From: Streptomyces sp. NBC_01498
GTDB lineage: Bacteria; Actinomycetota; Actinomycetes; Streptomycetales; Streptomycetaceae
Assembly (NCBI RefSeq): GCF_036327775.1
Contig: NZ_CP109598.1
Coordinates: forward strand, 5,468,001-5,532,000
Direction: 5' to 3'
Length of the DNA stretch: 64,000 bases
Both the position numbers and the translations under genes were made by a program. Positions 7,263 through 35,780 of the stretch are shown one piece after another (position 1 is the stretch's first letter; every line of letters starts with the position of its first letter). The notes beneath the pieces are model-generated. The model was given only the letters and a program-made list of their open reading frames with translations. It was not told where the DNA came from and made no database searches.

Positions 7263-7910
7263 TCAGGCGCGTGGCGCACATCCGAGCACGTGATCCTTCA
7301 CCAGAGCGCCGATGGCGGGGTCGCGGCGGCGGAACGCCTCGACCAGATCCTGGTGCTCCTCCGCGTACGACTTCTGGACCGTACCGAGCCACCGGATCGA
7401 CAGCGCGGTGAACACCTCGATGCCGAGCCCCTCCCAGGTGTGCAGCAGCACCCCGTTCCCGGCCGCGCGCACCAGCTCCCGGTGGAAGTCCACGGTGTGC
7501 CGCACCTGCGCCGTCCCGTCGGCCCGCCGGTCCGCCTCGTACAGCGCCGTCACGTGCGGCTCCAGGGCGGAGGTGTCGGCCGCCAGCCGCTCGGCGGCCA
7601 GCTCGGCGGCGATCTGCTCCAGACCGGCCCGCACGGGATAACTCTCCTCCAGATCGGCGGCGGTCAGATTCCGTACCCGGACGCCCTTGTTGGGCGCGGA
7701 CTCGATCAGCCGCAGCGACTCCAGCTCGCGCAGCGCCTCCCGCACGGGTGTCTGGCTCACGGCCAGCTCGGTCGCGATCCGCCGCTCGACGATCCGCTCA
7801 CCCGGCTTCCAGCGTCCGCTGACGATGCCCTCCACGATGTGCTCGCGGATCTGCTCACGGAGGGAGTGGATGACGGGCGGGGGCGGGGTCATGGGTGGGG
7901 GCGGGGTCAT
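7263..7910 (-). CDS. GntR/FadR-family (FCD) regulator, likely controlling aceE
   Basis: A 215-residue regulator. A winged helix at about residues 15-80 shows LREQIREHIVEGIVSGRWKPGE and VSQTPVREALRELESLRLI, the GntR signature. It is followed by an FCD effector domain (about 90-210) with the conserved Asp/Arg/His pattern (HTVDFHRELVRAAGN). The gene is directly upstream of aceE in the same direction, the position of PdhR in other bacteria, so pyruvate or a related metabolite is a plausible ligand. The N-terminus repeats itself (MTPPPPMTPPPP), giving two possible ATG starts 18 bases apart. A GAAGGAG site fits the first (7910). Only 32 bases separate it from the CHAT gene, so read-through from that operon is possible. 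Confidence 0.85.
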   Translation of the reverse strand: MTPPPPMTPPPPVIHSLREQIREHIVEGIVSGRWKPGERIVERRIATELAVSQTPVREALRELESLRLIESAPNKGVRVRNLTAADLEESYPVRAGLEQIAAELAAERLAADTSALEPHVTALYEADRRADGTAQVRHTVDFHRELVRAAGNGVLLHTWEGLGIEVFTALSIRWLGTVQKSYAEEHQDLVEAFRRRDPAIGALVKDHVLGCAPRA

Positions 7911-7942: not shown

Positions 7943-8683
7943 TTACCCCTCCTGGGGTGGGTCCCAGGCGGGCGATGACTGACGGAGGAGGGTGGTTTTG
8001 CGCAACCGTCCCAGGAAGGTGCCCCCCGCGGGCTTGACGGGGGCGCGCGGCGACGGGTCGCGGAACTCCGGCCGGACGACGTGGACCGCGTCGGCGTTCA
8101 CGCCGGGGGCGGTGCGGAGTTCGGGGAGACAGGAGGGATTGGCGCCGTAGAACTCGACGGCGGCGACGGCGAACATGTGCGCCGCGTGGACGGAACGGCC
8201 GTGGGCGAGAGCGCGGTACAGCTCGCCGGCGTACTGGAGACAGTTCAGGTCGTGGATCTCGCCCTCGGTGCCGATGACGCAGGGGACGGCCTCGGTGAGG
8301 AGAACGGCCAGCTCCTCGGACCAGCAGGCGTTGAGCACGACGAGTTGCAGACCGTCGGGTGCGAACCCCACGAGCAGCTTGCGCAGCCCCTCGTGGGAGA
8401 CGGGAGCGTCCCCGCCGTCGTCGGTGAGGAACCGCAGGCCGCCGCCGGGGGTGCCGCGCCCGGAGAAGTGGAGTACCGCCGGGACGTGCGTGAGGAGTTG
8501 CCGGGGCAGGTCACTGGCCTGGGCGGACGGGAGGGAGTCGAACGCGAGGGCATGACCGTACGGCGCGCCGGTGACGCCCCGCTTCATCTCCCTGAACTCC
8601 GCGCCCGCGTCGGGCGACCCGGGGATGCGTACGGACGCGGCCTGGACGACCAGGACGCGGCTGGGCGGCGGGGAACCGGTCAT
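7943..8683 (-). CDS. Stand-alone CHAT-domain protein with degenerate active site
   Basis: A 246-residue protein whose core is a CHAT (caspase HetF associated with TPRs) protease fold. The catalytic-Cys strand LVVLNACWSEE is intact (Cys120), followed by AVPCVIGTEGEI and a YRALAHGRSVHAAH helix as in typical CHAT domains. The His loop reads VLHFSGRGTPGGG. The family consensus there is HFSGHG, so the catalytic His is replaced by Arg76 (codon CGC; one base from CAC). It has no signal peptide or membrane segment. Its ATG overlaps the stop of the caspase/STAND gene (ATGA), so the two are translationally coupled. It may be a pseudo-protease adaptor or a substrate-binding partner. A sequencing error at one base is the simplest alternative. 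Confidence 0.8.
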   Translation of the reverse strand: MTGSPPPSRVLVVQAASVRIPGSPDAGAEFREMKRGVTGAPYGHALAFDSLPSAQASDLPRQLLTHVPAVLHFSGRGTPGGGLRFLTDDGGDAPVSHEGLRKLLVGFAPDGLQLVVLNACWSEELAVLLTEAVPCVIGTEGEIHDLNCLQYAGELYRALAHGRSVHAAHMFAVAAVEFYGANPSCLPELRTAPGVNADAVHVVRPEFRDPSPRAPVKPAGGTFLGRLRKTTLLRQSSPAWDPPQEG

Positions 8684-11600
8684 GCGGCCGGGGTGGTTGC
8701 CAGGACGGCCCGCAGGAGCGTGCTGAGGTGTTCGGCGTGCTCCGGCTGCCGCCCGATGAGGGCGGCGATCTGGGAGACCGCTCGGTCGCGGTCCTCGGCG
8801 GTGGGCGGGTCCGCCGGTACGGGTACCGGGGTGCCGCCGCCGCTCAGGACGTCGGCGACGGCGCGGTGGACGTGGGCGGCGAACTCGTCCAGGAAGACAG
8901 CCTGTTCGAGCGCGGCGCAGTGGCGGAGAGTGTCCGGGGAGGGCGTCGTCAGCGCGGTGCCGACGCGGTCGTGGAGCGCGGTACGGCTCGTGGCGCAGGC
9001 ATACGCGGCGGGGATGCCGTCCGCGCGGGCGAGATGGATCAGCGCGGCGTGGCCGAGGGCGGTGGGGTCGTTCTCGGCGCCGGCGAGCGCCTGTTCGGCG
9101 TCGTCCTGGAGCAGGACGGCGGCGTGAGTGGTGAGGCGGGTCCGGGACTCGTCCCACGAGGGGGCGGAGAGCCAGACGTCGAGCACCTCGTCGAGGAGGT
9201 AGGGGCGGAAAGCGGCGTCGGGGCCCGCGGCCACCGCGTGGAGCAGGAGACGGAGATGGGGTTCGGCGGCCTCGGTGACCAGTGCGAGCTCTTGGAGGGC
9301 CAGCGCGGCCTCCGGCGTGTCGAGCGCGTCCGCGTGGGCGGTCCAGAACGCGCGGGACGCCGTCCAGGTGGGGCAGTCGATCCAATCCCCCACGAGGTCC
9401 AGGACATCGGCGGAGAGGGTGAGCCACGCCGGGGGCCCGGTTCCGGTGGCGCGGTTCCAGACGGTGGCGACGCGGCGCTCCTCGTCGGGGCCGGTGGCCG
9501 CGTGGAGGCGGAGCCGGTGGCGGGCTGCGAAGGCGAGGTCGTTCTCGCCCGGCGGCGCGGCGGCGAGAGCTGTCAGCTCCTCGACCCCGGTCTCCGCGTC
9601 GGCGTACCCGATCCGGAACGACGCCCGCGCGAAGGCGATGTGGCGGGCCGCCCCGGGGTGGCCCGCCAGCGCCTGTTCGGTCTCCGTGTAGGCGGCCTCC
9701 GCCAGGTCGTGCCGCCCGTCCTCGGCGAGATGGATCGCGAGGTTGTTGAGGGAGGTGGCCAGGTCGAGGAGGTGGGCGGGCGGATTTCTGGCGGCGAGTT
9801 CGCGGCGGAGGGCGACGGCTTCCCTGGCGGCGTCGAGTGCCGCCGGCCGCTCTCCGGCCTCGGCGAGACGGACGGCCAGGTTGCTCACCGACATGGCGAG
9901 ACCGGGAACGAAGGCGGCGGCGTTCTCCCCGGCCAGCGTGCGGTACGTCCCGACGGCTTCGTGTGCCGCTTCGAGTGCCGCCTGCCCGTCCCCGCCCTTG
10001 GCGAGGTGGTCACCGAGGTTGTTGAGGGACATCGCCAGGTCGGGGAGGTGGGCGGGCGGATTTCTGGCGGCGAGTTCGCGGCGGAGGGCGACGGCTTCCC
10101 TGGCGGCGTCGAGTGCCGCCGGCCGCTCTCCGGCCCCGGCGAGATGGTTGGCGAGGTTGGTGAGGGACATCGCCAGGTCGGGGAGGTGGGCGCCCGGATT
10201 GTCCTGGGCCAGGGCGCGGTACATGGCGGTTGCCTCCTGCGCCGATGCGAGGGCGTTCCGCCGGTCCCCGCCGTCGGCGAGATGGTTGGCGAGGTTGTTG
10301 AGGGAGTTGGCCAGGTCGGGGAGGTGGGCGCCCGGATTGTCCTGGGCCAGGGCGTGGTACATGGCGGTTGCCTCCTGCGCCGGTACGAGGGCGCTCCGCC
10401 GGTCCCCGTTGCCGGCGAGGAGCATGGCGAGGTTGTTGAGGGTCGCTGCCAGCCGGGGCAGGTGGGCCGCGGGGTTCTGCTGGGCCAGCGCCTGGTACAT
10501 GCTGACGGCTTCGTGCGCGGGGCCGAGAGATCCCTCACGGTCTCCGGCGTTCGCCATCGACGTGGCGAGGTTGCCGAGGGACATGGCCAGGTCGGGAAGA
10601 TGGACGGCGGGGTCCCGGTGGGCCAGGGTCCGGTACAGCCCGGTCGCTTCGCGCGCGCACGCGAGCGCGCTCTGCCGGTCTCCGCCGTCGGCCAGGTGAT
10701 TGGCGAGGTTGTTGAGGGACATGGCCAGGTCGGGCAGGCAGGCCGGATCCTGCTGGACCAGGGAGCGGCGGATGGCGATGGCCTCGTGCGCGGGGCCGAG
10801 CGAACCCTGATGGTCCCCGCCGTCCGCCAGCCGGTTGGCGAGGTTGCTGAGCGCCCCCGCCAGCCGGCGGCGGTGGGCGGCCGGGTTCTCGTCGGCCAGC
10901 GCACGGAAGCGGTCCGCCGCCTCCCGCGCGTGCGCGTGTGCTCCCCGCCAGTCTCCCGTGGCGGCCAGATGGACGGAGAGGTTGCTGACACCGGTGGCGA
11001 GGTCGGGCAGGAAGGCCGTGGGGTTGGCGGCGGCCAGGGAACGCCGGAGGGTGACGGCCTCCCGCGCGGACACGACGGCACGGCGCGAGTCCCCGGCGTC
11101 GGCCTGGTAGTTGGCGAGATTGCCGAGTGCGGTGGCGAGGTCGGGGAGGTGGGCGGCGGGATTCTCCCGCTCCACGGAGCGGTACATGTCCACGGCTTCC
11201 TGAGCGGACTCCAGCGCCGCGCTCCGGTCTCCGGAGTCGCCGAGATGGCGTGCGAGATTGCCGAGGGCACTCGCGAGATAGGGACGGTATGCGGTGGGAT
11301 TCCTGGCGGTCAGCTCCCGGCGGACGGCGACGGCTTCCCGGGCGTGTTCCAGCCCTCCCTCACGGTCCCCGGTCAGGGCGAGCAGACGGGCAAGGTTGCC
11401 GAGGGCGACGGCGAGCGCCGGTTGATGGATGCCGGGGCGTTCCTCGGCCAGGGCGTGGTACAGCACGACCGCCTCCCGTGAGGGCGCCAGAGCCTCCTCG
11501 GGGTTCCCCGACTCCGGAACGCGAACCCCCAGAGCGAGCAGGGCCGCGGCGAGGTCGGGGAGGAAGCGCTCCCCGTTCAGCTCCACCAGGGTCCGCAGCA

Positions 11601-13689
11601 GCTCGACGCCCGGTCCTCCGGCAGCCACCGCATGTGCCGTCAACTCCCTCGACAGATAGGGGTTGGCCTTCTCCGGCGACGCCGTGTCGTCGGTCTCACG
11701 CCGCAGCAGCGTCACCAGCGCCTCGGCGATGCCGAGCGCGGGATCGGCGGCCCCGTCCGTCTCCCGCCGCCGTGAGACCCGGCGCAGATGGTCCACGAAC
11801 TCCCGGTGGTAGAGCCGGTACACCGCCTGCGTACCGTCCGTGTCCTCCACCACGTACCTGCCGTACGCGCCGAGTACCCAGTCCACGTCGTCCGGTCCGT
11901 ACTCCGTTCCCGCCGCGCTGACGGCGGACGCGGCGATCTCCCAGATCCCCCGGGCCGGCATCCCCGGTCCGCTGCTCCAGGCCAGGGCTGTGAGCAAGTC
12001 GTCGGCGCCGAGGGGGATTCGCCGCCCGTCCCGTTCCAACGTCGGCCCGCTCGCCAGGTCGTCGGCGAGGGCTTCCGCGATCGAGCTCGGCAGCCGGTGC
12101 GTCCAGTCACCCTCGCCGTCCTGCCTGAACCGCCGGAGTAGTGACCCCGTGACGAGACGGGCGAACAGGAAGCCTCCGGCACCACCCGTGGCGCGCTCCG
12201 TCAGCCCGTTCGCCGTCCCGGCGCTGCGCTCGCCCGACACACCCCCTGCCCGCAGCCGCCGTTCCACATACGCCCGGACATCGGCCCCGGTGCCCAACTC
12301 CCCGTCCAGGTCGGCGATATGCACGGCCGCTCCCAGTAACCTCCTCAGCGTCTCGTCCAACGGCTCCCTGGGCTCGGCGAGCGGTCGGAACGGGCGGTCC
12401 CGGGACCCCAGCAACACCGTGGCGATCCGGCTCAGCGGCACCAGCAGTTGTTCCACGATCGCCGTGGCCTGCTCGGGGGCGGCCTCGTCCAGGCCGTCCA
12501 GCAGCAGTGCCGCCGGGTGCTCCGCGCCCCGTCCCTCGATCTCCGCGATCAGCGCGGACGGTGTCTTCGGTACGGGCAGTCCGAGGCGCTGAGCCAGCAC
12601 CTCGGCCAGCCGCTGCGCGTCCAGCCCGCGCAGATGAACCGACGCGTCCACGGAACTCTCGCCCGGGTCCGGGTCGCCCTCCTCCAGCGCGCCGTGCCGC
12701 TTCGCCTCCTTCCGTTGCTCCTTGTCCGACAGCGTCGCGATACGGCCCAGCACTGCCGACTTCCCGCTCCCCGCGCTGCCCGTCACCAGGAACAGGCCAG
12801 GCTTCCGCTCACCCAGCCACGAGACGATCTCGGTGAGTACGTCCCGGCGGCCCGTGAAGAACCAGCCCTCCTCCGTGGGATCGGCCCCACGCGCCGCCAA
12901 CACCAGATGCTCGACCAGTTGTTCGGGTGCGTCCCTGCGCCAGCGTGGGTTGTGGAACATGGGCAGTGAGCGTCCGGAGTTGACCTGCAACGGCAGTTGT
13001 CCGCCCGCCGGCATCTGGGCCAGCACGGCCCCGATCACCGTCTCCCCGGTCACGCCCCGGTTGTGGACGCTCCACAGGTGCTTGTAGTGGTCCGTACGGG
13101 GTCCTTCCCGCAGCACGTCGGCGACGGTGTCGAGCAGGGTGCCGCGCCCCTCTGCCAGCTCGTCCGGCTGACAACTCGCGATGACCCCCAGCCAGGCGGC
13201 CCGGCCCCCCGGGAGCGACTGCTCGGCCCAGGCGGACAGCGCTTCCTCGACCGAGGGCAGCACCCCGGCCCCCGAGTAGCAGGTGTCGACAATCAGCAGG
13301 ATCTGGTCGGCGCCGCTGCGCAGCGCGGCTTCCGCCAGGAGTTCCACGCGGTACGTGTGCTCGGAATCGGCCCAGTCCTTGGTCTCACGGGTGATCAGAC
13401 GCAGCTGATTCCGGTGCTTCTTTCCATGCCCCGACCAGACGACGATCGCCGGACCGTTCCCGCCCTTCTCGCGCCAGGTCCGCTGCCAGTCACCTACGGC
13501 ATCCCGTACCTCGTCCCGTACCGGATCACGCACCACCTCGGGCTCGTAGCCGAAACCCGACAGCAGGTTCGCGATGTCGTCCAACTGATCCCGCGCACCA
13601 ACCAGTGGGGGAAATACCGCCTGTTCGTAGTTCTCCACCACGATCCCCAGCACCGTGCCCTTGACCGCGAACTCCGCCTGCTCAGTCAT
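8680..13689 (-). CDS. Caspase-like protease / STAND NTPase / TPR-repeat protein
   Basis: A 1669-residue multidomain protein resembling an NLR. Residues 1 to about 240 are a caspase (peptidase C14) domain with both catalytic residues: His88 in WSGHGKK and Cys137 in IVDTCYSG. An NTPase follows, with Walker A GSAGSGKS (304-311) and Walker B LLLDGLDEA (395-403), then GSRDRPF as a sensor-like arginine motif and a helical/winged region to about 690. About fourteen 46-residue TPR-like repeats (LPDLAxSLNNLAxHLA...) fill 709 to 1345. A 320-residue helical C-terminus ends the protein. No membrane segments are seen. Gene order and overlaps (8 bp with the hydrolase upstream, 4 bp with CHAT downstream) show an operon. 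Signal perception by TPRs, NTP-driven oligomerisation and caspase activation is the expected mechanism by family analogy. Confidence 0.85.
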   Translation of the reverse strand: MTEQAEFAVKGTVLGIVVENYEQAVFPPLVGARDQLDDIANLLSGFGYEPEVVRDPVRDEVRDAVGDWQRTWREKGGNGPAIVVWSGHGKKHRNQLRLITRETKDWADSEHTYRVELLAEAALRSGADQILLIVDTCYSGAGVLPSVEEALSAWAEQSLPGGRAAWLGVIASCQPDELAEGRGTLLDTVADVLREGPRTDHYKHLWSVHNRGVTGETVIGAVLAQMPAGGQLPLQVNSGRSLPMFHNPRWRRDAPEQLVEHLVLAARGADPTEEGWFFTGRRDVLTEIVSWLGERKPGLFLVTGSAGSGKSAVLGRIATLSDKEQRKEAKRHGALEEGDPDPGESSVDASVHLRGLDAQRLAEVLAQRLGLPVPKTPSALIAEIEGRGAEHPAALLLDGLDEAAPEQATAIVEQLLVPLSRIATVLLGSRDRPFRPLAEPREPLDETLRRLLGAAVHIADLDGELGTGADVRAYVERRLRAGGVSGERSAGTANGLTERATGGAGGFLFARLVTGSLLRRFRQDGEGDWTHRLPSSIAEALADDLASGPTLERDGRRIPLGADDLLTALAWSSGPGMPARGIWEIAASAVSAAGTEYGPDDVDWVLGAYGRYVVEDTDGTQAVYRLYHREFVDHLRRVSRRRETDGAADPALGIAEALVTLLRRETDDTASPEKANPYLSRELTAHAVAAGGPGVELLRTLVELNGERFLPDLAAALLALGVRVPESGNPEEALAPSREAVVLYHALAEERPGIHQPALAVALGNLARLLALTGDREGGLEHAREAVAVRRELTARNPTAYRPYLASALGNLARHLGDSGDRSAALESAQEAVDMYRSVERENPAAHLPDLATALGNLANYQADAGDSRRAVVSAREAVTLRRSLAAANPTAFLPDLATGVSNLSVHLAATGDWRGAHAHAREAADRFRALADENPAAHRRRLAGALSNLANRLADGGDHQGSLGPAHEAIAIRRSLVQQDPACLPDLAMSLNNLANHLADGGDRQSALACAREATGLYRTLAHRDPAVHLPDLAMSLGNLATSMANAGDREGSLGPAHEAVSMYQALAQQNPAAHLPRLAATLNNLAMLLAGNGDRRSALVPAQEATAMYHALAQDNPGAHLPDLANSLNNLANHLADGGDRRNALASAQEATAMYRALAQDNPGAHLPDLAMSLTNLANHLAGAGERPAALDAAREAVALRRELAARNPPAHLPDLAMSLNNLGDHLAKGGDGQAALEAAHEAVGTYRTLAGENAAAFVPGLAMSVSNLAVRLAEAGERPAALDAAREAVALRRELAARNPPAHLLDLATSLNNLAIHLAEDGRHDLAEAAYTETEQALAGHPGAARHIAFARASFRIGYADAETGVEELTALAAAPPGENDLAFAARHRLRLHAATGPDEERRVATVWNRATGTGPPAWLTLSADVLDLVGDWIDCPTWTASRAFWTAHADALDTPEAALALQELALVTEAAEPHLRLLLHAVAAGPDAAFRPYLLDEVLDVWLSAPSWDESRTRLTTHAAVLLQDDAEQALAGAENDPTALGHAALIHLARADGIPAAYACATSRTALHDRVGTALTTPSPDTLRHCAALEQAVFLDEFAAHVHRAVADVLSGGGTPVPVPADPPTAEDRDRAVSQIAALIGRQPEHAEHLSTLLRAVLATTPAA
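9768..10407. repeat. Near-identical duplicated TPR-encoding DNA
   Basis: A 92-base stretch at 9768-9859 recurs essentially unchanged at 10044-10135, exactly 276 bases (two 46-codon repeats) away. Another pair with few differences lies at about 10189-10270 and 10327-10407, one repeat (138 bases) apart. Other repeats in the array are more diverged at DNA level. The pattern indicates recent in-frame gain or gene conversion of TPR units. Confidence 0.85.
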
Positions 13690-15118
13690 CGCTCTCGCCC
13701 CGCTCCTCGTCGCCCGCCAGCAACAGCGCCGTCACCGTCGAGTCCGGCCGTCCCGCCGCCCCGATCGTCACCCGGTACGGGCCGGGGACGAGCGGATCGG
13801 TGAGGGTGGTTCCGTACGCGCCCCCGCCCAGGTTGGTCAGCGTGCGCTCGATCACCTGGCCCGCTCCCACCGGGCGGAGGACCGCCCGGATACGCAGTTC
13901 GTCGCCGCGCGGGGTGCCGGGCGGGACCGTCACCGCGATCTCGTACGGTTCGCCGTTCGCCACCCAGTCGGGCGCCAGCACCCCCAGCGGCACCGGCCCG
14001 TGTTCCGGGCCCCGGTGGTAAGCGGGTTCGGGGGCCAGCAGGTTCCAGAGGGCGTCTCGGACGCCGCTGTTGTTCTGGAGGCTGCCGTGCAGTTCGTTCG
14101 GGGTGTGGCCCGATGTCGCGCCCGGCGGGTGGGCCGACAGGCGGGGGACCCTGCCGTCGCCGCCCTCGGACGTGCCGTCGACGGTCAGCAGGGTGGTGAT
14201 CCGCTCGCCGTCCTCGGAGAACGTGCCGGTCGTCGCCGTAGGCTGCCCCACCCCCACGAACGGTGCGAAACCGTCGTCAGGCGTCGCCGCATCCCTGATC
14301 TCCTGGTGGAAGCGGCCCGCGTCCCGCAGCAACTCCCCGTCCACCCCGGGCAAGTTGTGCGGCAGCTCGCGCGTGTACAGCAGGCCCTCGCCCGTGGCGA
14401 GGCAGGCGTAGTCCGGGGTCAGCTGGTGGAGCGACGGCAGGCTTCGCGCGAACGAGGTCATCGGAGCCACGGCCAGGCGGAGCCGGCCCAGACCCAGGCC
14501 GTAGCCGTTGACCAGCGTCTCCAGCGCGTCGATGGAGCCCCGGTGCGGCGTGCCGATGGTGATGAGGCGGCGGGTGATCTCGTGGCCGCCCAGGCACTTC
14601 ACGTAGTACCGGGCGACCAGGCCGCCCATCGAGTGGCAGATGAAGGTGACCCGCGCGTCCCGCCGGGCGGGGGCGGAGGCGCGCCAGCGGCCCAGCTCCT
14701 CGTCGACACGGTCCCGGAGCAGGCGCGCGTTGTAGCGGCAGGAGAGCCGCCAGTCGTAGCCGAACTCCAGCAGGTTGGCCGACGTACCGGTGGGATCGCC
14801 GGGGTGCCGGCGGCGGACGGTGAAGTGCTGCTCCAGCCAGTCCAGCAGAGCGCTGTAGCCGTCAACGCCCTTCCAGAGGCCGGGAATCCCGTGCACATCG
14901 CGTACGGCACCCAGCACCTGTACACCGTCCCCCGGATGGTCGTCGCCCAGGTCGGCGGGCAGCGTCAGACGGCCGACCGACCGGCCGAACGTACGGATGC
15001 CCTGCCACAGCGCCGCCCCCGACGCGCCCCACACCTCGTGGCCCTCGGCGTCGGCGAGACGGCTGCCCAGGATGCCGGGCAGGACGACGACCAGATCATT
15101 CACGGGCTGACGAAGCAT
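13682..15118 (-). CDS. LCAT-like alpha/beta hydrolase (cytoplasmic phospholipase/acyltransferase type)
   Basis: A 478-residue protein of the lecithin:cholesterol acyltransferase family (PF02450-like). It begins directly with VNDLVVVLPGILGSRL, the family's first strand and oxyanion-hole loop. The catalytic triad is visible: Ser163 in ICHSMGGLVARYY, Asp321 in GGDGRVP and His344 in NELHGSL. A beta-rich C-terminal extension of about 100 residues (YEIAVTVPPGT, then YRVTIGAAGRPDS) looks Ig-like. There is no signal peptide, so the enzyme should be cytoplasmic, unlike secreted lipases. I chose ATG 15118. An upstream in-frame start at 15166 would lie almost on top of a TTGACA box (15171-15176). It overlaps the caspase gene by 8 bases. 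It is a plausible membrane-lipid-attacking effector. Confidence 0.8.
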   Translation of the reverse strand: MLRQPVNDLVVVLPGILGSRLADAEGHEVWGASGAALWQGIRTFGRSVGRLTLPADLGDDHPGDGVQVLGAVRDVHGIPGLWKGVDGYSALLDWLEQHFTVRRRHPGDPTGTSANLLEFGYDWRLSCRYNARLLRDRVDEELGRWRASAPARRDARVTFICHSMGGLVARYYVKCLGGHEITRRLITIGTPHRGSIDALETLVNGYGLGLGRLRLAVAPMTSFARSLPSLHQLTPDYACLATGEGLLYTRELPHNLPGVDGELLRDAGRFHQEIRDAATPDDGFAPFVGVGQPTATTGTFSEDGERITTLLTVDGTSEGGDGRVPRLSAHPPGATSGHTPNELHGSLQNNSGVRDALWNLLAPEPAYHRGPEHGPVPLGVLAPDWVANGEPYEIAVTVPPGTPRGDELRIRAVLRPVGAGQVIERTLTNLGGGAYGTTLTDPLVPGPYRVTIGAAGRPDSTVTALLLAGDEERGESDD

Positions 15119-15317: not shown

Positions 15318-17186
15318 CTACAGGCCGAGTTCGACCTCGAACTCGCCCGCCTCCAGGATCGACTTGACCGCCGACAGGTAGCGGGCGGCGTCCGCGCCGT
15401 CCACCAGGCGGTGGTCGTAGGAGAGCACGACGTGGACCATGTCGCGCACCGCGATGGTCTCGCCGAGGTCCGGGTGGTTGATGACCACGGGACGGCGGAC
15501 CGTCGCGCCGATGCCCAGGATGGCGACCTGGTTCGGGGGCACGATGATCGTGTCGAACAGGGCGCCGCGCGAGCCCGTGTTGCTGATGGTGAAGGTCGCA
15601 CCGGACAGCTCGTCCGGCGTGATCTTGCTGCCGCGGACCTTGCCCGCCAGTTCGGCGGTCTTCTTGGCGATGCCGGCGAGGTTCAGGTCGCCCGCGCCCT
15701 TGATGACCGGCGTCATCAGACCCTTCTCGGAGTCCACGGCGATGCCGATGTTCTCCGAGTCGAAGTACGTGATGGTGCCCTCGTCCTCGTTGATGCGGGC
15801 GTTGACGACCGGGTACGCCTTGAGCGCCTGGGCCGCCGCCTTCACGAAGAACGGCATCGGGGACAGCTTCACGCCCTCGCGGGCGGCGAAGGTGTCCTTG
15901 GCCTGCGCGCGCAGCCGCATCAGCTTCGTGATGTCGACCTCGACGACCGAGGTCAGCTGGGCCTGGCCGTGCAGCGCCTTCATCATGTTCTCGCCGATGA
16001 CCTTGCGCATGCGAGGCATCTTGATCGTCTGGCCACGCAGCGGGGAGACCTCCAGGGCGGGGGCCTTCGACGCGGCGGGGGCCGACGGGGCGGCGGCGGG
16101 CGCCGATGCCTTCGCGGCGGCGGCCTTGGCGGCCTCCGCGGCGGCGACGACGTCCTGCTTGCGGATACGGCCACCGACGCCGGTGCCCTTGACCGACGCC
16201 AGGTCGACGCCGTTCTCGGCGGCGAGCTTGCGCACGAGCGGCGTCACGTACGCGCCGTCGTCACCGGGAGCGGCGGCGGGGGCGGCAGCGGGGGCCGACG
16301 GGGCGGCGGCAGGAGCGGCGGGTGCCGGTGCGGGCGCCTCCTGCTTCGGAGCCGGGGCGGGCGCGGGCGCCGGGGCCTCCTGCTTGGGAGCCGGAGCCGG
16401 AGCTTCCTGCTTGGGAGCCGGCGCGGGGGCCGGGGCAGGCGCGGGAGCCTCCTGCTTCGGGGCCTCCTGCTTGGGGGCCTCCTGCTTGGGGGCCTCCTCC
16501 TTCGGCGCGGCCGGAGCCGGGGCCGGGGCGGACGCCGGAGCGGCACCCTCGGCGCCGATCACGGCCAGTCTCGCGCCGACCTCGGCGGTCTCGTCCTCGC
16601 CGACCACGATCTCCAGCAGCACACCGGCGACCGGCGCGGGGATCTCGGTGTCGACCTTGTCCGTCGAGACCTCCAGCAGCGGCTCGTCGGCCTCGACCGA
16701 GTCGCCGACCTCCTTCAGCCAGCGGGTGACGGTGCCCTCGGTGACGCTCTCACCGAGCGCCGGAAGCGTGACGTCCGTGCCCTCGGCGGAGCTGCCGCCC
16801 TCCGACGCCTCGGCCGTCGGCGCGGGCGCCGGGGCCTCCGCCTCGGTCGACGGCGCCTCCGGTGCCTCCTGAGCGGGGGCGGGCTCCGGCTCCGGCTCCG
16901 GTGCGGCCTCGGCCTGCTGCGGCGCCTCGGCCGCGGCCTCGCCGCCCGTACCGTCGTCGATCACGGCCAGCTCCGCGCCGACCTCGACCGTCTCGTCCTC
17001 GGCGACCTTGATCGACGCCAGGATCCCGGCGGCGGGCGCCGGGATCTCGGTGTCGACCTTGTCGGTGGAGACCTCCAGCAGCGGCTCGTCGGCCTCGACG
17101 CGCTCGCCCTCGGCCTTCAGCCAGCGCGTGACAGTGCCCTCGGTGACGCTCTCGCCGAGCGCCGGCAGGGTTACGGAAACCGCCAT
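15318..17186 (-). CDS. sucB: 2-oxoacid dehydrogenase E2 (dihydrolipoamide acyltransferase), actinobacterial SucB type
   Basis: A 622-residue E2 carrying two lipoyl domains (about 1-78 and 140-216), each with the lipoylated lysine in [15 protein letters not shown] long Ala/Pro linker (about 217-305) is rich in repeated KQEAP units. The E3/E1-binding domain follows ([15 protein letters not shown]...GTGVGGRI), then the catalytic domain ending with [16 protein letters not shown], which contains the active-site His and Asp. In actinobacteria one E2 core serves both pyruvate and 2-oxoglutarate dehydrogenase activities, so the sucB name follows convention and the real acyl preference may be acetyl. 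lpdA lies just upstream (96 bases) and is probably co-transcribed. Confidence 0.93.
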
Positions 17187-31158: not shown

Positions 31159-34100
31159 ATGTCCTGGCTGTCCAGATTCAGCCTCGCGCAACGGGCCCTG
31201 ATCGGGCTGATATCCCTGATCGCGCTCCTCTTCGGAGCGATCGCGATCCCCCAGCTGAAGCAGCAACTGCTGCCCTCCATCGAACTTCCGATGGTCTCGG
31301 TTCTCGCCCCCTACCAGGGCGCCTCGCCCGACGTGGTCGAGAAGCAGGTCGTCGAGCCGATCGAGGCGGCCATCGAGGCCGTCGACGGCATCACCGGTGT
31401 GACCTCCACGGCGAGCGAGGGCAACGCCGTGATCATGGCCAGTTTCGATTTCGGCGGTGACGGCTCGAAGCAACTGGTCGCCGACATCCAGCAGGCCGTG
31501 AACCGGGCCCGCGCCCAACTGCCCGACGACGTCGACCCGCAGGTCGTGGCCGGTTCCACGGACGACATCCCGACCGTCGTCCTCGCCGCGTCCGGCGGCG
31601 ACGACCAGCAGGCGCTCGCCGACCGGCTGGAGCGTACTGTCGTCCCCGCACTGGAGGACATCGACGGCGTCGGCCAGGTCTCGGTCGACGGCGTCAGGGA
31701 CCTCCAGGTCTCCGTCACCCCCGACGACAAGAAGCTCGCCGCCGCGGGTCTCTCACCGATGGCCCTCTCGGAGGCCCTGAAGGCGGGCGGCGCGACCGTC
31801 CCCGCCGGGTCGTTCTCCGAGGACGGCAAGAGCCGCACCGTACAGGTCGGCGGCGGCTACACCTCGATCGAGCAGATCGAGGACCTGCGCGTCGGCGGCC
31901 CCCAGCCGGGCGCGCCCCAGGGCGGCGCCGGACAGGGCGGTGGTCCCGTACGGCTCGCCGACATCGCCACCGTCGAGCAGCGGCCCGCCCAGGCGACCTC
32001 GCTGACCCGTACGAACGGTGAGCCCAGCCTCGCCGTGATGGCCACCATGGACAAGGACGGCAGCGCCGTCGCCATCTCCGACGCCGTCAAGGACAAGCTG
32101 CCCGCCCTGCGCGCGGACCTCGGCGACGGCGCCGACCTGACCGTGGTCAGCGACCAGGGCCCGGCCGTCTCCAAGTCGATCTCCGGCCTGACGACCGAGG
32201 GTGCGCTCGGTCTGGTCTTCGCGGTTCTGGTCATCCTGGTCTTCCTGGCCTCGATCCGCTCCACCCTGGTCACGGCGGTCTCCATCCCGCTCTCCGTGGT
32301 CCTCGCGCTGATCGTGCTGTGGACCCGCGACCTGTCGCTCAACATGCTCACCCTCGGCGCGCTGACCATCGCCATCGGCCGGGTCGTCGACGACTCGATC
32401 GTGGTGCTGGAGAACATCAAGCGCCACCTCGGCTACGGCGAGGAGCGCGAGGCCGCGATCACCTCGGCGGTCAAGGAGGTCGCGGGCGCGGTCACCGCCT
32501 CCACGCTCACCACGGTCGCGGTGTTCCTGCCGATCGGCCTCGTGGGCGGCATGGTGGGCGAGCTGTTCGGCTCGTTCTCGCTGACGATCACCGCCGCCCT
32601 GCTGGCGTCGCTGCTGGTCTCGCTCACCGTCGTACCGGTGCTGTCGTACTGGTTCCTGCGCGCCCCGAAGGCCGTACGCGGGATGGACCCCGCCGAGGCC
32701 CGCCGGATCGCGGAGGAGAAGGAGTCCGCCAGCCGGATGCAGCTGGTGTACGTGAAGGTGCTGCGCTTCGCGACCCGGCGGCGGATCACCAGCGTCGTCC
32801 TCGCGTTCGTGATCCTGCTCGGCACGTTCGCCATGGCGCCGCTGCTCAAGACCAACTTCTTCGACCAGGGCGAGCAGGAGGTCCTCACCGTCAAGCAGGA
32901 GCTGGCGCCGGGCACCAGCCTGGAGACGGCCGACGCGGCGGCCAAGAAGGTCGAGAAGACCCTCGCCGGCTTCGACGAGATCAAGGAGTACCAGGTCACC
33001 GTCGGTTCGTCCGGCTTCATGGCGGCGTTCGGCGGCGGTACGGGCGCCAACCAGGCGTCCTACCAGGTCACCCTGAAGGACTCGGCGACGTACGAGAAGA
33101 CCAGCGAGGCCATCGACAAGGCCCTCGGCGAACTGGACGGCGTCGGCGAGACGACCATCGCGGCCGGCGACGGCTTCGGCAGCCAGGACCTGAGCGTCGT
33201 CGTCAAGGCGTCCGACGCCAAGACCCTCGGGGACGCCGCCGAGCAGGTCCGCGAGGAGGTCGCCGGGATCGACGACGTCACCGACGTGCAGAGCGACCTG
33301 GCGCAGAGCATCCCGCGTATCTCGGTCAGGGCCAACGAGAAGGCCGCCGGCGCCGGGTTCAACGACGCCACGCTCGGCATGGCCGTCGCCCAGGCCGTAC
33401 GCGGTACGCCGTCCGGCAAGGCGGTCCTCGGGGACACCGAGCGCGACGTGGTCGTCACCTCCGCCGAGCCCGCGAAGACGATCGCCGAACTGAAGGCCCT
33501 GCCGCTCGGCGGGGTGAAGCTCGGTCAGATCGCCGAGGTGAAGCTGGCGCCGGGCCCGCTGTCGATGACCCGTATCGACGGCTCCCGCGCGGCGACGATC
33601 ACCGCGAAGCCGGTCGGCGACAACACCGGCGCGGTCAGCACCACCCTCCAGTCGAAGATCAGCGCGCTCGACCTGCCCGAGGGGGCGACCGCCTCCATCG
33701 GCGGCGTGTCCGAGGACCAGGACGAGGCGTTCCTCCAGCTGGGGCTCGCCATGCTGGCGGCCGTCGCGATCGTGTTCATGCTGCTCGTCGGCACGTTCCG
33801 GTCGCTGGTGCAGCCGCTGATCCTGCTGGTCTCCATCCCGTTCGCGGCGACCGGCGCGCTCGGTCTGCTGCTCGTCACCGGGACCCCGCTGGGTGTGCCG
33901 GCGATGATCGGCATGCTGATGCTCATCGGCATCGTGGTGACCAACGCGATCGTGCTGATCGACCTCATCAACCAGTACCGGGCGCAGGGCCTCGGGGTGG
34001 TCGAGGCGGTCGTCGAGGGCGGCAGGCACCGGCTGCGGCCGATCCTGATGACCGCGCTGGCCACGATCTTCGCGCTGCTGCCGATGGCGATGGGGATCAC

Positions 34101-34368
34101 CGGCGAGGGCGGCTTCATCGGCCAGCCGCTGGCCGTGGTGGTGATCGGCGGTCTGCTGACGTCGACGCTGCTGACGCTGCTGCTGGTGCCGACGCTGTAC
34201 TCGATGGTCGAGCTCCGCAAGGAGCGCCGCCGGGACAAGAAGGCCGCGAAGCGGGCGGCGGCCCCGGACGGCGGGGACAGCGGCAGCGGGGGCGGTGGGA
34301 CGGGTGACGGCGGTACGCCGCCGCGCTCCGACGCGCCGTCGCCGGCACCGGAGCCGGTCAACGCCTGA
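31159..34368 (+). CDS. RND (HAE1/AcrB-like) efflux transporter
   Basis: A 1069-residue proton-driven transporter with RND topology. There is one N-terminal helix, a large extracytoplasmic loop (about 35-330), five to six helices, a second loop (about 560-860), and six more helices. The proton-relay aspartates of helix 4 are present (GRVVDDSIVVLEN, Asp411-Asp412). HAE1 hallmarks such as APYQGASPDVVEKQVVEPIE and NTDAIV-like NAIVLIDLINQYR are clear. The C-terminal tail is Ser/Gly-rich. A membrane-fusion protein and outer-membrane channel are absent, as expected in a monoderm. Some actinobacteria keep such stand-alone pumps. The start is ATG 31159, after AGAAGAGAG. Substrate unknown. Confidence 0.93.
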   Translation: MSWLSRFSLAQRALIGLISLIALLFGAIAIPQLKQQLLPSIELPMVSVLAPYQGASPDVVEKQVVEPIEAAIEAVDGITGVTSTASEGNAVIMASFDFGGDGSKQLVADIQQAVNRARAQLPDDVDPQVVAGSTDDIPTVVLAASGGDDQQALADRLERTVVPALEDIDGVGQVSVDGVRDLQVSVTPDDKKLAAAGLSPMALSEALKAGGATVPAGSFSEDGKSRTVQVGGGYTSIEQIEDLRVGGPQPGAPQGGAGQGGGPVRLADIATVEQRPAQATSLTRTNGEPSLAVMATMDKDGSAVAISDAVKDKLPALRADLGDGADLTVVSDQGPAVSKSISGLTTEGALGLVFAVLVILVFLASIRSTLVTAVSIPLSVVLALIVLWTRDLSLNMLTLGALTIAIGRVVDDSIVVLENIKRHLGYGEEREAAITSAVKEVAGAVTASTLTTVAVFLPIGLVGGMVGELFGSFSLTITAALLASLLVSLTVVPVLSYWFLRAPKAVRGMDPAEARRIAEEKESASRMQLVYVKVLRFATRRRITSVVLAFVILLGTFAMAPLLKTNFFDQGEQEVLTVKQELAPGTSLETADAAAKKVEKTLAGFDEIKEYQVTVGSSGFMAAFGGGTGANQASYQVTLKDSATYEKTSEAIDKALGELDGVGETTIAAGDGFGSQDLSVVVKASDAKTLGDAAEQVREEVAGIDDVTDVQSDLAQSIPRISVRANEKAAGAGFNDATLGMAVAQAVRGTPSGKAVLGDTERDVVVTSAEPAKTIAELKALPLGGVKLGQIAEVKLAPGPLSMTRIDGSRAATITAKPVGDNTGAVSTTLQSKISALDLPEGATASIGGVSEDQDEAFLQLGLAMLAAVAIVFMLLVGTFRSLVQPLILLVSIPFAATGALGLLLVTGTPLGVPAMIGMLMLIGIVVTNAIVLIDLINQYRAQGLGVVEAVVEGGRHRLRPILMTALATIFALLPMAMGITGEGGFIGQPLAVVVIGGLLTSTLLTLLLVPTLYSMVELRKERRRDKKAAKRAAAPDGGDSGSGGGGTGDGGTPPRSDAPSPAPEPVNA

Positions 34369-34402
34369 CCGGGTCCGGGGCTGGGTCCGCGGGGGTCCGG
34401 GT

Positions 34403-34427
34403 CACGGGCCGCGCAGCGCGGTCCGTG
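34403..34427 (+). terminator. Hairpin downstream of the RND gene
   Basis: CACGGGCCGC (34403-34412) pairs with GCGGTCCGTG (34418-34427), with one G-U pair and a 5-base loop, 35 bases after the transporter stop. A likely rho-independent-type terminator without a U-tract. Confidence 0.55.
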
Positions 34428-34473
34428 AGCGATCCACGAGTGACTTACGAGTGATCCGTACGCTCACGAATGA

Positions 34474-34504
34474 GAGGGGCGCCCGCCGTCGGCGGGCGCC
34501 CCTC
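34474..34504. terminator. Bidirectional terminator between RND gene and nadA
   Basis: A perfect 14-bp stem, GAGGGGCGCCCGCC with GGCGGGCGCCCCTC, closes on a three-base GTC loop. It lies between two convergent genes and should stop transcription from both sides. Its main client is nadA, whose stop is about 45 bases away. Confidence 0.8.
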
Positions 34505-34547
34505 ACCGTTGTGCCCGGTGCCCGGTGCCCGGTGCCCGGCGCGCGGG

Positions 34548-35735
34548 TTACGGCAGCGCCAGCATCCGCTCCAGCGCGAGCTGGGCGAAGTCCGCCGTCC
34601 GCTTCTCGACCTCGATCCGGTTGATCTCCTTGCCGTCGGCGAGCGATTCGAGCGCCCACACCAGATGCGGCAGGTCGATGCGGTTCATCGTGGAGCAGAA
34701 GCAGACCGTCCGGTCGAGGAAGACGATCTTCTTGTCCTCGGCGGCGAATCGATTCGCCAGCCGCCGTACCAGATTCAGCTCGGTGCCGATCGCCCACGTC
34801 GAACCGGCCGGCGCCTCCTCCAGCATCGTGATGATGTGCTCCGTCGAGCCCACGTGGTCGGCGGCGGCGACCACCTCGTGCCGGCACTCCGGGTGAACCA
34901 GCACGTTCACGCCGGGAATCCGCGCGCGCACCTCGTTCACCGAGTCCAGCGAGAAGCGGCCGTGCACCGAGCAGTGCCCGCGCCACAGGATCATCTTCGC
35001 GTTCCGCAGCTCCTCGGCGGTCAGCCCGCCGTTCGGCTTGTGCGGGTTGTAGAGGACACAGTCCTCCAGGGACAGCCCGAGGTCCCGAACGGCCGTGTTG
35101 CGGCCCAGATGCTGGTCCGGCAGGAAGAGGACCTGTTCACCCCGCTCGAACGCCCAGGTGAGGGCGCGCTCGGCGTTGGACGAGGTGCATATGGTGCCGC
35201 CGTGCTCCCCGGTGAACGCCTTGATGTCGGCGGAGGAGTTCATGTACGAGACGGGGACGACCCGGTCGGCGATGCCCGCCTCGGTCAGTACGTCCCAGCA
35301 CTCGGCGACCTGCTCGGCCGTCGCCATGTCCGCCATGGAACAGCCCGCCGCCAGGTCGGGCAGGACGACCTTCTGGTCGTCGGACGTGAGGATGTCCGCC
35401 GACTCGGCCATGAAGTGGACACCGCAGAAGACGATGTACTCGGCGCCGGGGCGGGCGGCGGCCTCCCTGGCGAGCTTGAACGAGTCACCGGTCACGTCGG
35501 CGAACTGGATGACCTCGTCGCGCTGATAGTGGTGGCCGAGGATGAAGACCTTCTCCCCGAGCTTCGCCTTCGCCGCGCGCGCACGTTCGACCAGATCCGG
35601 GTCGGACGGGGACGGCAGGTCTCCGGGGCACTCCACGCCGCGCTCGCTCCGGGTGTCGGCCTCCCGGCCGAGCAGGAGCAGTGCGAGGGGCGACGGCTGG
35701 ACGTCGAGTTCCGGACGGGCTTGGGCCGTGGTCAC
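34548..35735 (-). CDS. nadA: Quinolinate synthase
   Basis: A 395-residue [4Fe-4S] enzyme that condenses iminoaspartate with dihydroxyacetone phosphate in de novo NAD synthesis. Visible are VFILGHHYQRDEVIQFAD, IVFCGVHFMAESADIL (first cluster Cys), LYNPHKPNGG, MILWRGHCSVHGRF (second Cys), VLVHPECRHEV and DRTVCFCSTMNR (third Cys). I place the start at GTG 35735 (VTTAQARPELDV), where AAAGGG lies 8 bases upstream; an in-frame GTG at 35744 has too short a spacing. No nadB or nadC is visible nearby. The gene is divergent from erpA, the Fe-S carrier, a sensible neighbour for an Fe-S enzyme. Confidence 0.95.
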   Translation of the reverse strand: MTTAQARPELDVQPSPLALLLLGREADTRSERGVECPGDLPSPSDPDLVERARAAKAKLGEKVFILGHHYQRDEVIQFADVTGDSFKLAREAAARPGAEYIVFCGVHFMAESADILTSDDQKVVLPDLAAGCSMADMATAEQVAECWDVLTEAGIADRVVPVSYMNSSADIKAFTGEHGGTICTSSNAERALTWAFERGEQVLFLPDQHLGRNTAVRDLGLSLEDCVLYNPHKPNGGLTAEELRNAKMILWRGHCSVHGRFSLDSVNEVRARIPGVNVLVHPECRHEVVAAADHVGSTEHIITMLEEAPAGSTWAIGTELNLVRRLANRFAAEDKKIVFLDRTVCFCSTMNRIDLPHLVWALESLADGKEINRIEVEKRTADFAQLALERMLALP

Positions 35736-35780
35736 GTCACGCACCCTTTCTTCTCTGCGGAGGAGCCTTTTCGTCTAATT

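Follow-up and report, generated by a model that had tools for sequence, protein, structure and literature searches.

Background

In the VMAP ternary systems, according to the accessible part of the description by Kaur et al. 2020 (PMC7159879), every caspase has an alpha/beta-hydrolase gene next to it, the caspase is rarely replaced by a transglutaminase-like peptidase, and the authors take caspase and hydrolase to work together. Protease-gated pro-nucleases, some gated by trypsin and one activated by a caspase, have been shown in a second study (PMC12799240), the accessible part of which describes the pairs with trypsin that occur in AVAST and Hachiman and likewise in Lamassu and DRT, as well as the caspase-nuclease Canu, and suggests that other enzyme classes may be protease-gated effectors as well.

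Here, we analysed a gene cassette of Streptomyces sp. NBC_01498 within a stretch of 64,000 nucleotides (positions 5,468,001 to 5,532,000 of contig NZ_CP109598.1), referred to as the window. A predicted lipase gene is followed in this cassette by the gene of a caspase with an NLR-like architecture and by a third gene with a caspase-like fold. Loci used for comparison carry L numbers.

Results

The cassette and its insertion site

The cassette and its borders comprise the following features (window positions).

7263..7910, minus strand: GntR/FCD regulator, one insertion border, with aceE next to it
7943..8683, minus strand: gene 3, predicted pseudoprotease of 246 aa with a CHAT fold, overlapping gene 2 by 4 bases
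8680..13689, minus strand: gene 2, protein of 1669 aa with caspase, STAND NTPase, and TPRs, overlapping gene 1 by 8 bases
13682..15118, minus strand: gene 1, LCAT-type alpha/beta-hydrolase, 478 aa (Pfam LCAT; AF2 model)
15318..17186, minus strand: sucB, the other insertion border (TIGR02927)

The three genes overlap on the minus strand in the order LCAT lipase, caspase-STAND-TPR, CHAT-fold, as an earlier sequence-only reading had described; the overlaps of 8 and 4 bases, from which it had deduced stoichiometric coupling, likely indicate translational coupling instead. The cassette sits between sucB and GntR-aceE and is inserted there: the GntR gene was found in 13 of 25 relatives searched, and in all 13 the end of sucB lies about 0.1–1 kb away with no cassette between.

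The same sucB/GntR site holds cassettes in L034, L038, L042, and L074, and in L043 and L044 an LCAT without partners in which the catalytic Ser is replaced by Gly. In L034, the cassette is separated from the GntR gene by a TnpB-family gene (L034:13052-14203). A related cassette in L037 is located between nadA and an RND permease, and the cassettes of L035, L036, L040, and L041 have a 398-aa neighbour equal in length to that beside the L037 cassette (nadA). In the window itself, the gap (34369-34547) that separates an RND-type transporter gene (31159-34368) from nadA (34548-35744) is empty. The two insertion sites of the cassette family are about 20 kb apart.

The window neighbours tested were sucB, lipoamide dehydrogenase, an M17 aminopeptidase, GntR, aceE, a WYL regulator, and cobalamin genes, and no other defence gene was found among them. 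A phage-borne module was considered and rejected, since a search of 50,697 phage records gave no match to gene 1 at 1e-8.

Gene 1, a predicted LCAT-type lipase

Gene 1 scores 35.4 bits against PF02450 (curated cut-off 21) and carries the triad S163/D321/H344 of an LCAT-type alpha/beta-hydrolase, and is predicted to be a lipase or phospholipase. The alpha/beta domain (residues ~1-362) is followed by a C-terminal Ig-like beta-sandwich (~378-468), and the AF2 model (pLDDT 91) has human LCAT (5txf) and Tle4 (4r1d) as its top PDB matches. The positions of interest are listed below.

14630..14632, minus strand: predicted catalytic Ser163 (HSMGG), present in 36/43 aligned LCATs (3 Gly, 3 Ala, 1 gap)
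14156..14158, minus strand: predicted catalytic Asp321 (GDG.V), present in 42/43 aligned LCATs (one gap)
14087..14089, minus strand: predicted catalytic His344, present in 39/43 aligned LCATs (3 Asn, 1 gap)
14012..14014, minus strand: Arg369 in the hydrolase/Ig-like linker, candidate P1 site for a basic-specific caspase, present in 73/75 close relatives

Prokaryotic caspase homologs cut after positively charged residues, as stated in the accessible part of PMC6426788, and Arg369 may be such a P1 site, which we treat as a lead rather than as proof. The residue is a feature limited to close relatives of gene 1. Among 133 LCAT sequences, Ser163 is replaced by Gly in seven, all of which lack Arg369, and this joint loss probably reflects one event in one clade; in three of the 133, Arg369 is missing although Ser163 is present. 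Conversely, Arg369 is kept in the LCAT of Kitasatospora L075, where the operon has no caspase. A long disordered gating loop was sought in the AF2 model and none was seen; the model has only short dips in confidence, in the blocks 31-50, 201-220, and 361-380 and in the tail 471-478.

The LCATs of L064, L065, and L067 adjoin a caspase-STAND gene yet lack Ser163 and His344, and therefore the LCAT fold can persist without activity. Beside the caspase-STAND and catalytically dead LCAT of L064, the third gene (L064:7379-9322) encodes pentapeptide repeats (647 aa), and a gene of similar size occupies this position in L065 and L067.

Gene 2, a caspase fused to a STAND NTPase and TPRs

The features of gene 2 are as follows; residue counts refer to 29 aligned caspase-STANDs, i.e., the window's own and sequences from 27 of 28 loci.

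13009..13644, minus strand: caspase (Peptidase_C14) domain, residues 16-227 (Pfam)
13426..13428, minus strand: predicted catalytic His88, present in 29/29 caspase-STAND sequences
13279..13281, minus strand: predicted catalytic Cys137 (DTCYS), Cys in 29/29 and Asp135 in 26/29
12442..12858, minus strand: STAND P-loop NTPase core, residues 278-416 (AAA_16 below threshold; GKS and DGLD motifs)
9655..11457, minus strand: TPR array, approximate bounds (TPR_10 and TPR_12 stretches)

With 30.7 bits against PF00656 (curated cut-off 21.4) and an H88/C137 dyad, the N-terminal part is predicted to be a caspase. Asp135, two residues before Cys137, presumably fits a preference for cleavage after basic residues, as in metacaspases. 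The order caspase-NTPase-TPR together with Walker A (residues 304-311) and Walker B (~394-402) marks the protein as STAND/NLR-like, with all Pfam NTPase matches remaining below their curated cut-offs (NACHT, 14.8 bits against 26.7). The Walker A Lys is kept in 29/29 sequences, like the caspase His and Cys. Assignments to the EACC1-type caspases (NF047832, 46.9 against a curated 140) and to the FxSxx TPR proteins (NF040586, 90.6 against 300, over the TPR part) were rejected. Elsewhere in the genome, Peptidase_C14 has a single match (L001:1468-3621), which is fused to a solute-binding-protein-like domain.

Gene 3, a probable pseudoprotease

Two positions of gene 3 were compared in 90 proteins obtained from a search with gene 3 as query.

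8456..8458, minus strand: Arg76, replacing the CHAT catalytic His and aligned with the HG His of SAVED-CHAT 8tl0
8324..8326, minus strand: Cys120, corresponding to the catalytic Cys of CHATs and kept in 90/90 proteins

Gene 3 has the CHAT (caspase-like) fold, and caspase-fold proteins prevail among the PDB matches listed for its model, but the His-Cys pair of active CHATs is incomplete. The His position holds Arg in 19/19 sequences (gene 3 and 18 close relatives), whereas 69 of the 71 others have His (one Tyr, one Phe). Because the catalytic His is Arg across its whole close clade, gene 3 is predicted to be a pseudoprotease, probably a dead CHAT; the reading of it as a second active protease was rejected on this ground. 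The gene 3 copies of L034, L042, L073, and L074 repeat proteins already in the set of 90 or are at least 97% identical to them, and the additional copies of L039 (42%) and L075 (51%) also have Arg at the His position, while a more distant relative in L072 keeps His. A dead CHAT fold beside a caspase is comparable in principle to c-FLIP beside caspase-8.

The three genes do not always occur together: gene 3 is present in only 3/8 of the closest complete caspase-STAND-TPR operons (L034, L035, L037-L042). To judge from equal lengths of the longest contig, at least 9/18 close gene 3 relatives apparently share a genome with one of the 120 LCAT matches listed (e.g., locus tags BN159_6249/6247). The CHAT gene is thus optional, which rules out the three-gene operon as the unit; the core unit is the first two genes, LCAT and caspase-STAND.

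Recurrence of the lipase-protease pairing

Among 246 Streptomyces genomes searched with the gene 1 LCAT, 226 gave matches at 1e-3, many of them short and round the catalytic Ser, and wide regions were read round 40 of the best 43 matches outside the own genome. A caspase-STAND gene adjoins the LCAT at 28/40 loci, a transglutaminase-like-STAND gene at 3/40 (L062, L069, and L072, of which L062 has no canonical Walker A), and a CHAT protease at another 3/40 (L048, L049, and L050). At the remaining 6/40, no protease partner was seen (L033, where the LCAT is broken; L043; L044; L054, at a contig edge; L056; and L060). The LCAT is placed first, second, or divergent relative to the caspase-STAND gene, and this is therefore not one inherited operon. 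The sensor repeats after the NTPase vary as well, being TPR in the window, L034-L042, and L047 and WD40 in L046, L051, L066, and L068.

The pairing recurred in a class-wide sample of 246 genomes searched with caspase-STAND and LCAT profiles, which gave 26 matches in 21 genomes and 12 matches in 9 genomes, respectively. Eight of the 12 LCAT matches lie at most 3 kb from a caspase-STAND match, seven of them within 240 bases, where 0.02 pairs within 5 kb would be expected by chance; once the three matches used in building the profiles are removed, the proportion is 5/9. The remaining four LCATs comprise one beside a transglutaminase-like-STAND (L098), one fusion (L099), and two fragments on separate contigs of one genome. 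The fusion (L099:2391-7700) joins a STAND NTPase to a C-terminal LCAT domain in one frame of 1769 aa and has no caspase match.

Eighteen class-wide caspase-STAND matches have no LCAT. The upstream gene was tested for seven of these, and in 6/7 it encodes another alpha/beta-hydrolase, all by Pfam matches below threshold (the L083-L088 hydrolases). A trio of a small alpha/beta-hydrolase, a caspase-STAND of ~1050 aa, and a second P-loop protein of ~1600–1700 aa recurs in L085, L086, and L088.

The operon of Kitasatospora cheerisanensis L075 contains LCAT, STAND-TPR, and pseudo-CHAT genes and no caspase; this arrangement was matched in 1/70 Kitasatospora genomes, itself identical to L075. The distances of LCATs and caspase-STANDs correlate (Mantel r 0.91, 32 pairs, 0/5000 permutations; r 0.63 among divergent pairs), a result given little weight because the distances carry no species-tree control.

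Exchange of the protease type

Beyond Actinomycetota, LCAT relatives occur on plasmids typed as conjugative, directly before a protease gene, which encodes a transglutaminase-like-STAND in Rhizobium johnstonii (L103) and in the cyanobacterium Sphaerospermopsis (L105, with HEAT repeats) and a CHAT with His and Cys in Bradyrhizobium (L104) and Rhizobium acidisoli (L106). The transglutaminase-like N-termini of L062, L069, L072, L098, L103, and L105 are homologous, every pair matching with E 7e-4 or better, and Cys and His motifs are present in 6/6. Pfam names the domain only in L072 (below cut-off) and L098 (DUF553, 20.5 bits, cut-off 20.5) and gives no transglutaminase-like match in L062, L103, and L105; in L062, L069, L103, and L105 the name is drawn from the similarity among the N-termini and from their Cys and His motifs. 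All five LCAT-linked CHATs (L048, L049, L050, L104, and L106) keep His and Cys, the L048 CHAT being named by its 71–75% identity to those of L049 and L050. One lipase family is therefore combined with cysteine proteases of three kinds, namely caspase, transglutaminase-like, and CHAT.

Link to Mokosh

Mokosh protects against phage. MkoA and MkoB come after the LCAT and caspase-STAND genes in one gene row in L066, L094, L095, and L097 (PADLOC scores of 830–847 bits for MkoA and 415–461 bits for MkoB in the four genomes). These four appear to be a Mokosh subtype with a lipase-protease add-on and a long MkoB. MkoB was found in 7/246 class-wide genomes, with three long frames (at least 1104 aa), all beside LCAT and caspase-STAND, and four short frames (476–594 aa), none of which is beside this pair. 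No MkoB was found at 1e-20 in the genome that contains the window, and genes 1-3 match neither MkoA nor MkoB. The tie between an NLR-like caspase module and a lipase that the sequence-only reading had seen in this one genome thus recurs well beyond it, and reaches a Mokosh gene row in four genomes.

Discussion

Since the lipase-protease pairing is recurrent and lies beside antiviral genes in four relatives, it may be a self-destruct switch in defence. Our preferred reading, to which we assign a probability of about 0.6, is that the cassette serves defence or cell suicide as an accessory, NLR-like module whose STAND-caspase, once activated, unleashes a membrane lipase. A cue of infection or stress would be sensed through the TPRs of gene 2, upon which the STAND NTPase, judging from the behaviour of its family, would oligomerise and bring the caspase domains together. 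The activated caspase would then act on the LCAT-type lipase. In the simplest case it would cut the lipase, and the cut, for which the linker at Arg369 is one candidate site, would free the alpha/beta-hydrolase from an inhibited state. The freed lipase may hydrolyse the membrane phospholipids of its own cell and so stop the spread of the phage, with gene 3 probably serving the caspase as a partner for docking or regulation.

The recurrent pairing, the Mokosh gene rows, the invariant caspase dyad and Walker A Lys, the exchange of protease type, and the L099 fusion count toward this proposal, as do the Ser163-to-Gly change in the solo LCATs of L043 and L044, the hydrolases upstream of 6/7 caspase-STANDs, and the precedent of gated pro-nucleases (accessible part of PMC12799240). 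Against it count the caspase-less L075 (a single case), the dead LCATs of L064, L065, and L067, the restriction of Arg369 to close relatives together with its presence in L075 and its absence from three LCATs that keep Ser163, the lack of a long gating loop, the lack of another defence gene among the window neighbours tested, and the 6/40 LCAT loci without a protease partner.

It is also possible, though we consider it rather unlikely, that the STAND protein activates the lipase directly, through recruitment or oligomerisation and without cleavage, while the caspase cuts itself or another target. Such activation would suit both the caspase-less Kitasatospora operon and the natural STAND-LCAT fusion of L099, but it leaves unaccounted for a caspase dyad kept in 29/29 sequences and the frequent replacement of an absent caspase by another type of cysteine protease.

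We regard as unlikely that the module is a developmental or starvation switch for cell death in multicellular actinomycetes rather than an anti-phage device. Many relatives do fall within Streptomyces, for which programmed cell death is on record (PMC7760128, accessible part), but the patchy accessory distribution, the inserted state of the cassette, the Mokosh linkage, and the relatives on conjugative plasmids of rhizobia and cyanobacteria argue against such a role.

That the lipase is not the executioner and is instead a substrate inactivated by the caspase, or the source of a lipid ligand for the sensor, seems improbable: the dead LCATs that persist beside caspase-STANDs point in this direction, yet Ser163 is kept in 36/43 LCATs, and the catalytic loss in the solo LCATs fits a lipase that is harmful, or merely useless, when unregulated. 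Finally, an unremarkable housekeeping esterase operon tied to the flanking 2-oxo-acid dehydrogenase genes, as its position between sucB and GntR-aceE might suggest, is extremely improbable: the site is empty in relatives (in 13/13 that possess the GntR gene, sucB lies at most ~1 kb away and the cassette is missing), and related cassettes are found elsewhere, e.g., by nadA.

Beyond the preferred reading of a lipase unleashed by the STAND-caspase, a broader one is offered tentatively, in the knowledge that it may well prove too wide. LCAT lipases could be a general protease-gated, membrane-killing immune effector, the lipid counterpart of the gated nucleases, passed among caspase-STAND, transglutaminase-like-STAND, CHAT, and Mokosh settings in Actinomycetota, Pseudomonadota, and Cyanobacteriota, with the caspase of the window's clade controlled by a c-FLIP-like pseudo-CHAT. 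If the module works as proposed, proteolytic activation in bacterial immunity would be widened from nucleases to a membrane lipase, bacteria would possess, in two or three genes, a counterpart to the inflammasome pathway that leads from NLR through caspase to membrane rupture, and a bacterial caspase would have a natural pseudoprotease partner. The Mokosh link makes the proposal testable in laboratory strains.

Comparison with known systems

The fold and triad of gene 1 are common to Tle4 (4r1d) and LCAT lipases (5txf), from which it differs by the extra Ig-like C-terminal domain and by its tie to a protease-sensor gene. Compared with the SAVED-CHAT of type III CRISPR (8tl0), gene 3, at 246 aa, has no room for a SAVED domain and has lost the His to Arg, and no CRISPR gene was found among the window neighbours tested. 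Mokosh (PADLOC MkoA and MkoB) is joined to LCAT and caspase-STAND in four relatives, whereas the window cassette has no Mokosh gene.

The sequence-only reading had called the system undescribed, which is true in part. A caspase with a neighbouring alpha/beta-hydrolase is already known from VMAP systems (accessible part of PMC7159879), and protease-gated effectors are proven for nucleases (accessible part of PMC12799240). As in the former, the cassette has a caspase on the core protein of a conflict system and a neighbouring alpha/beta-hydrolase. The VMAP core as there described consists of MoxR, vWA, and VMAP, while that of the cassette family is a STAND NTPase with TPR or WD40 repeats, and no MoxR/vWA gene was found among the cassette neighbours tested; the cassette differs further by its LCAT-type hydrolase (the accessible part of the VMAP account gives no family for its hydrolase) and by its CHAT-fold third gene. 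Among the matches listed in a search of open-access titles and abstract openings, no description of an LCAT, caspase, and STAND operon or of its link to Mokosh was found.

With the pro-nuclease pairs, as far as the accessible part of their description goes, the cassette shares an effector gene combined with a protease that is fused to or next to the sensor, and a pair that is moved between defence systems. The effector in Canu-, AVAST-, and Hachiman-type pairs is an MBL nuclease, and no MBL domain was found among the Pfam matches of genes 1-3; that of the cassette has a lipase fold, and its activation by the protease is what we infer. What is apparently new here is the STAND (NLR-like) setting, the LCAT lipase, the exchange of protease type, the pseudo-CHAT, and the Mokosh-linked rows in four genomes.
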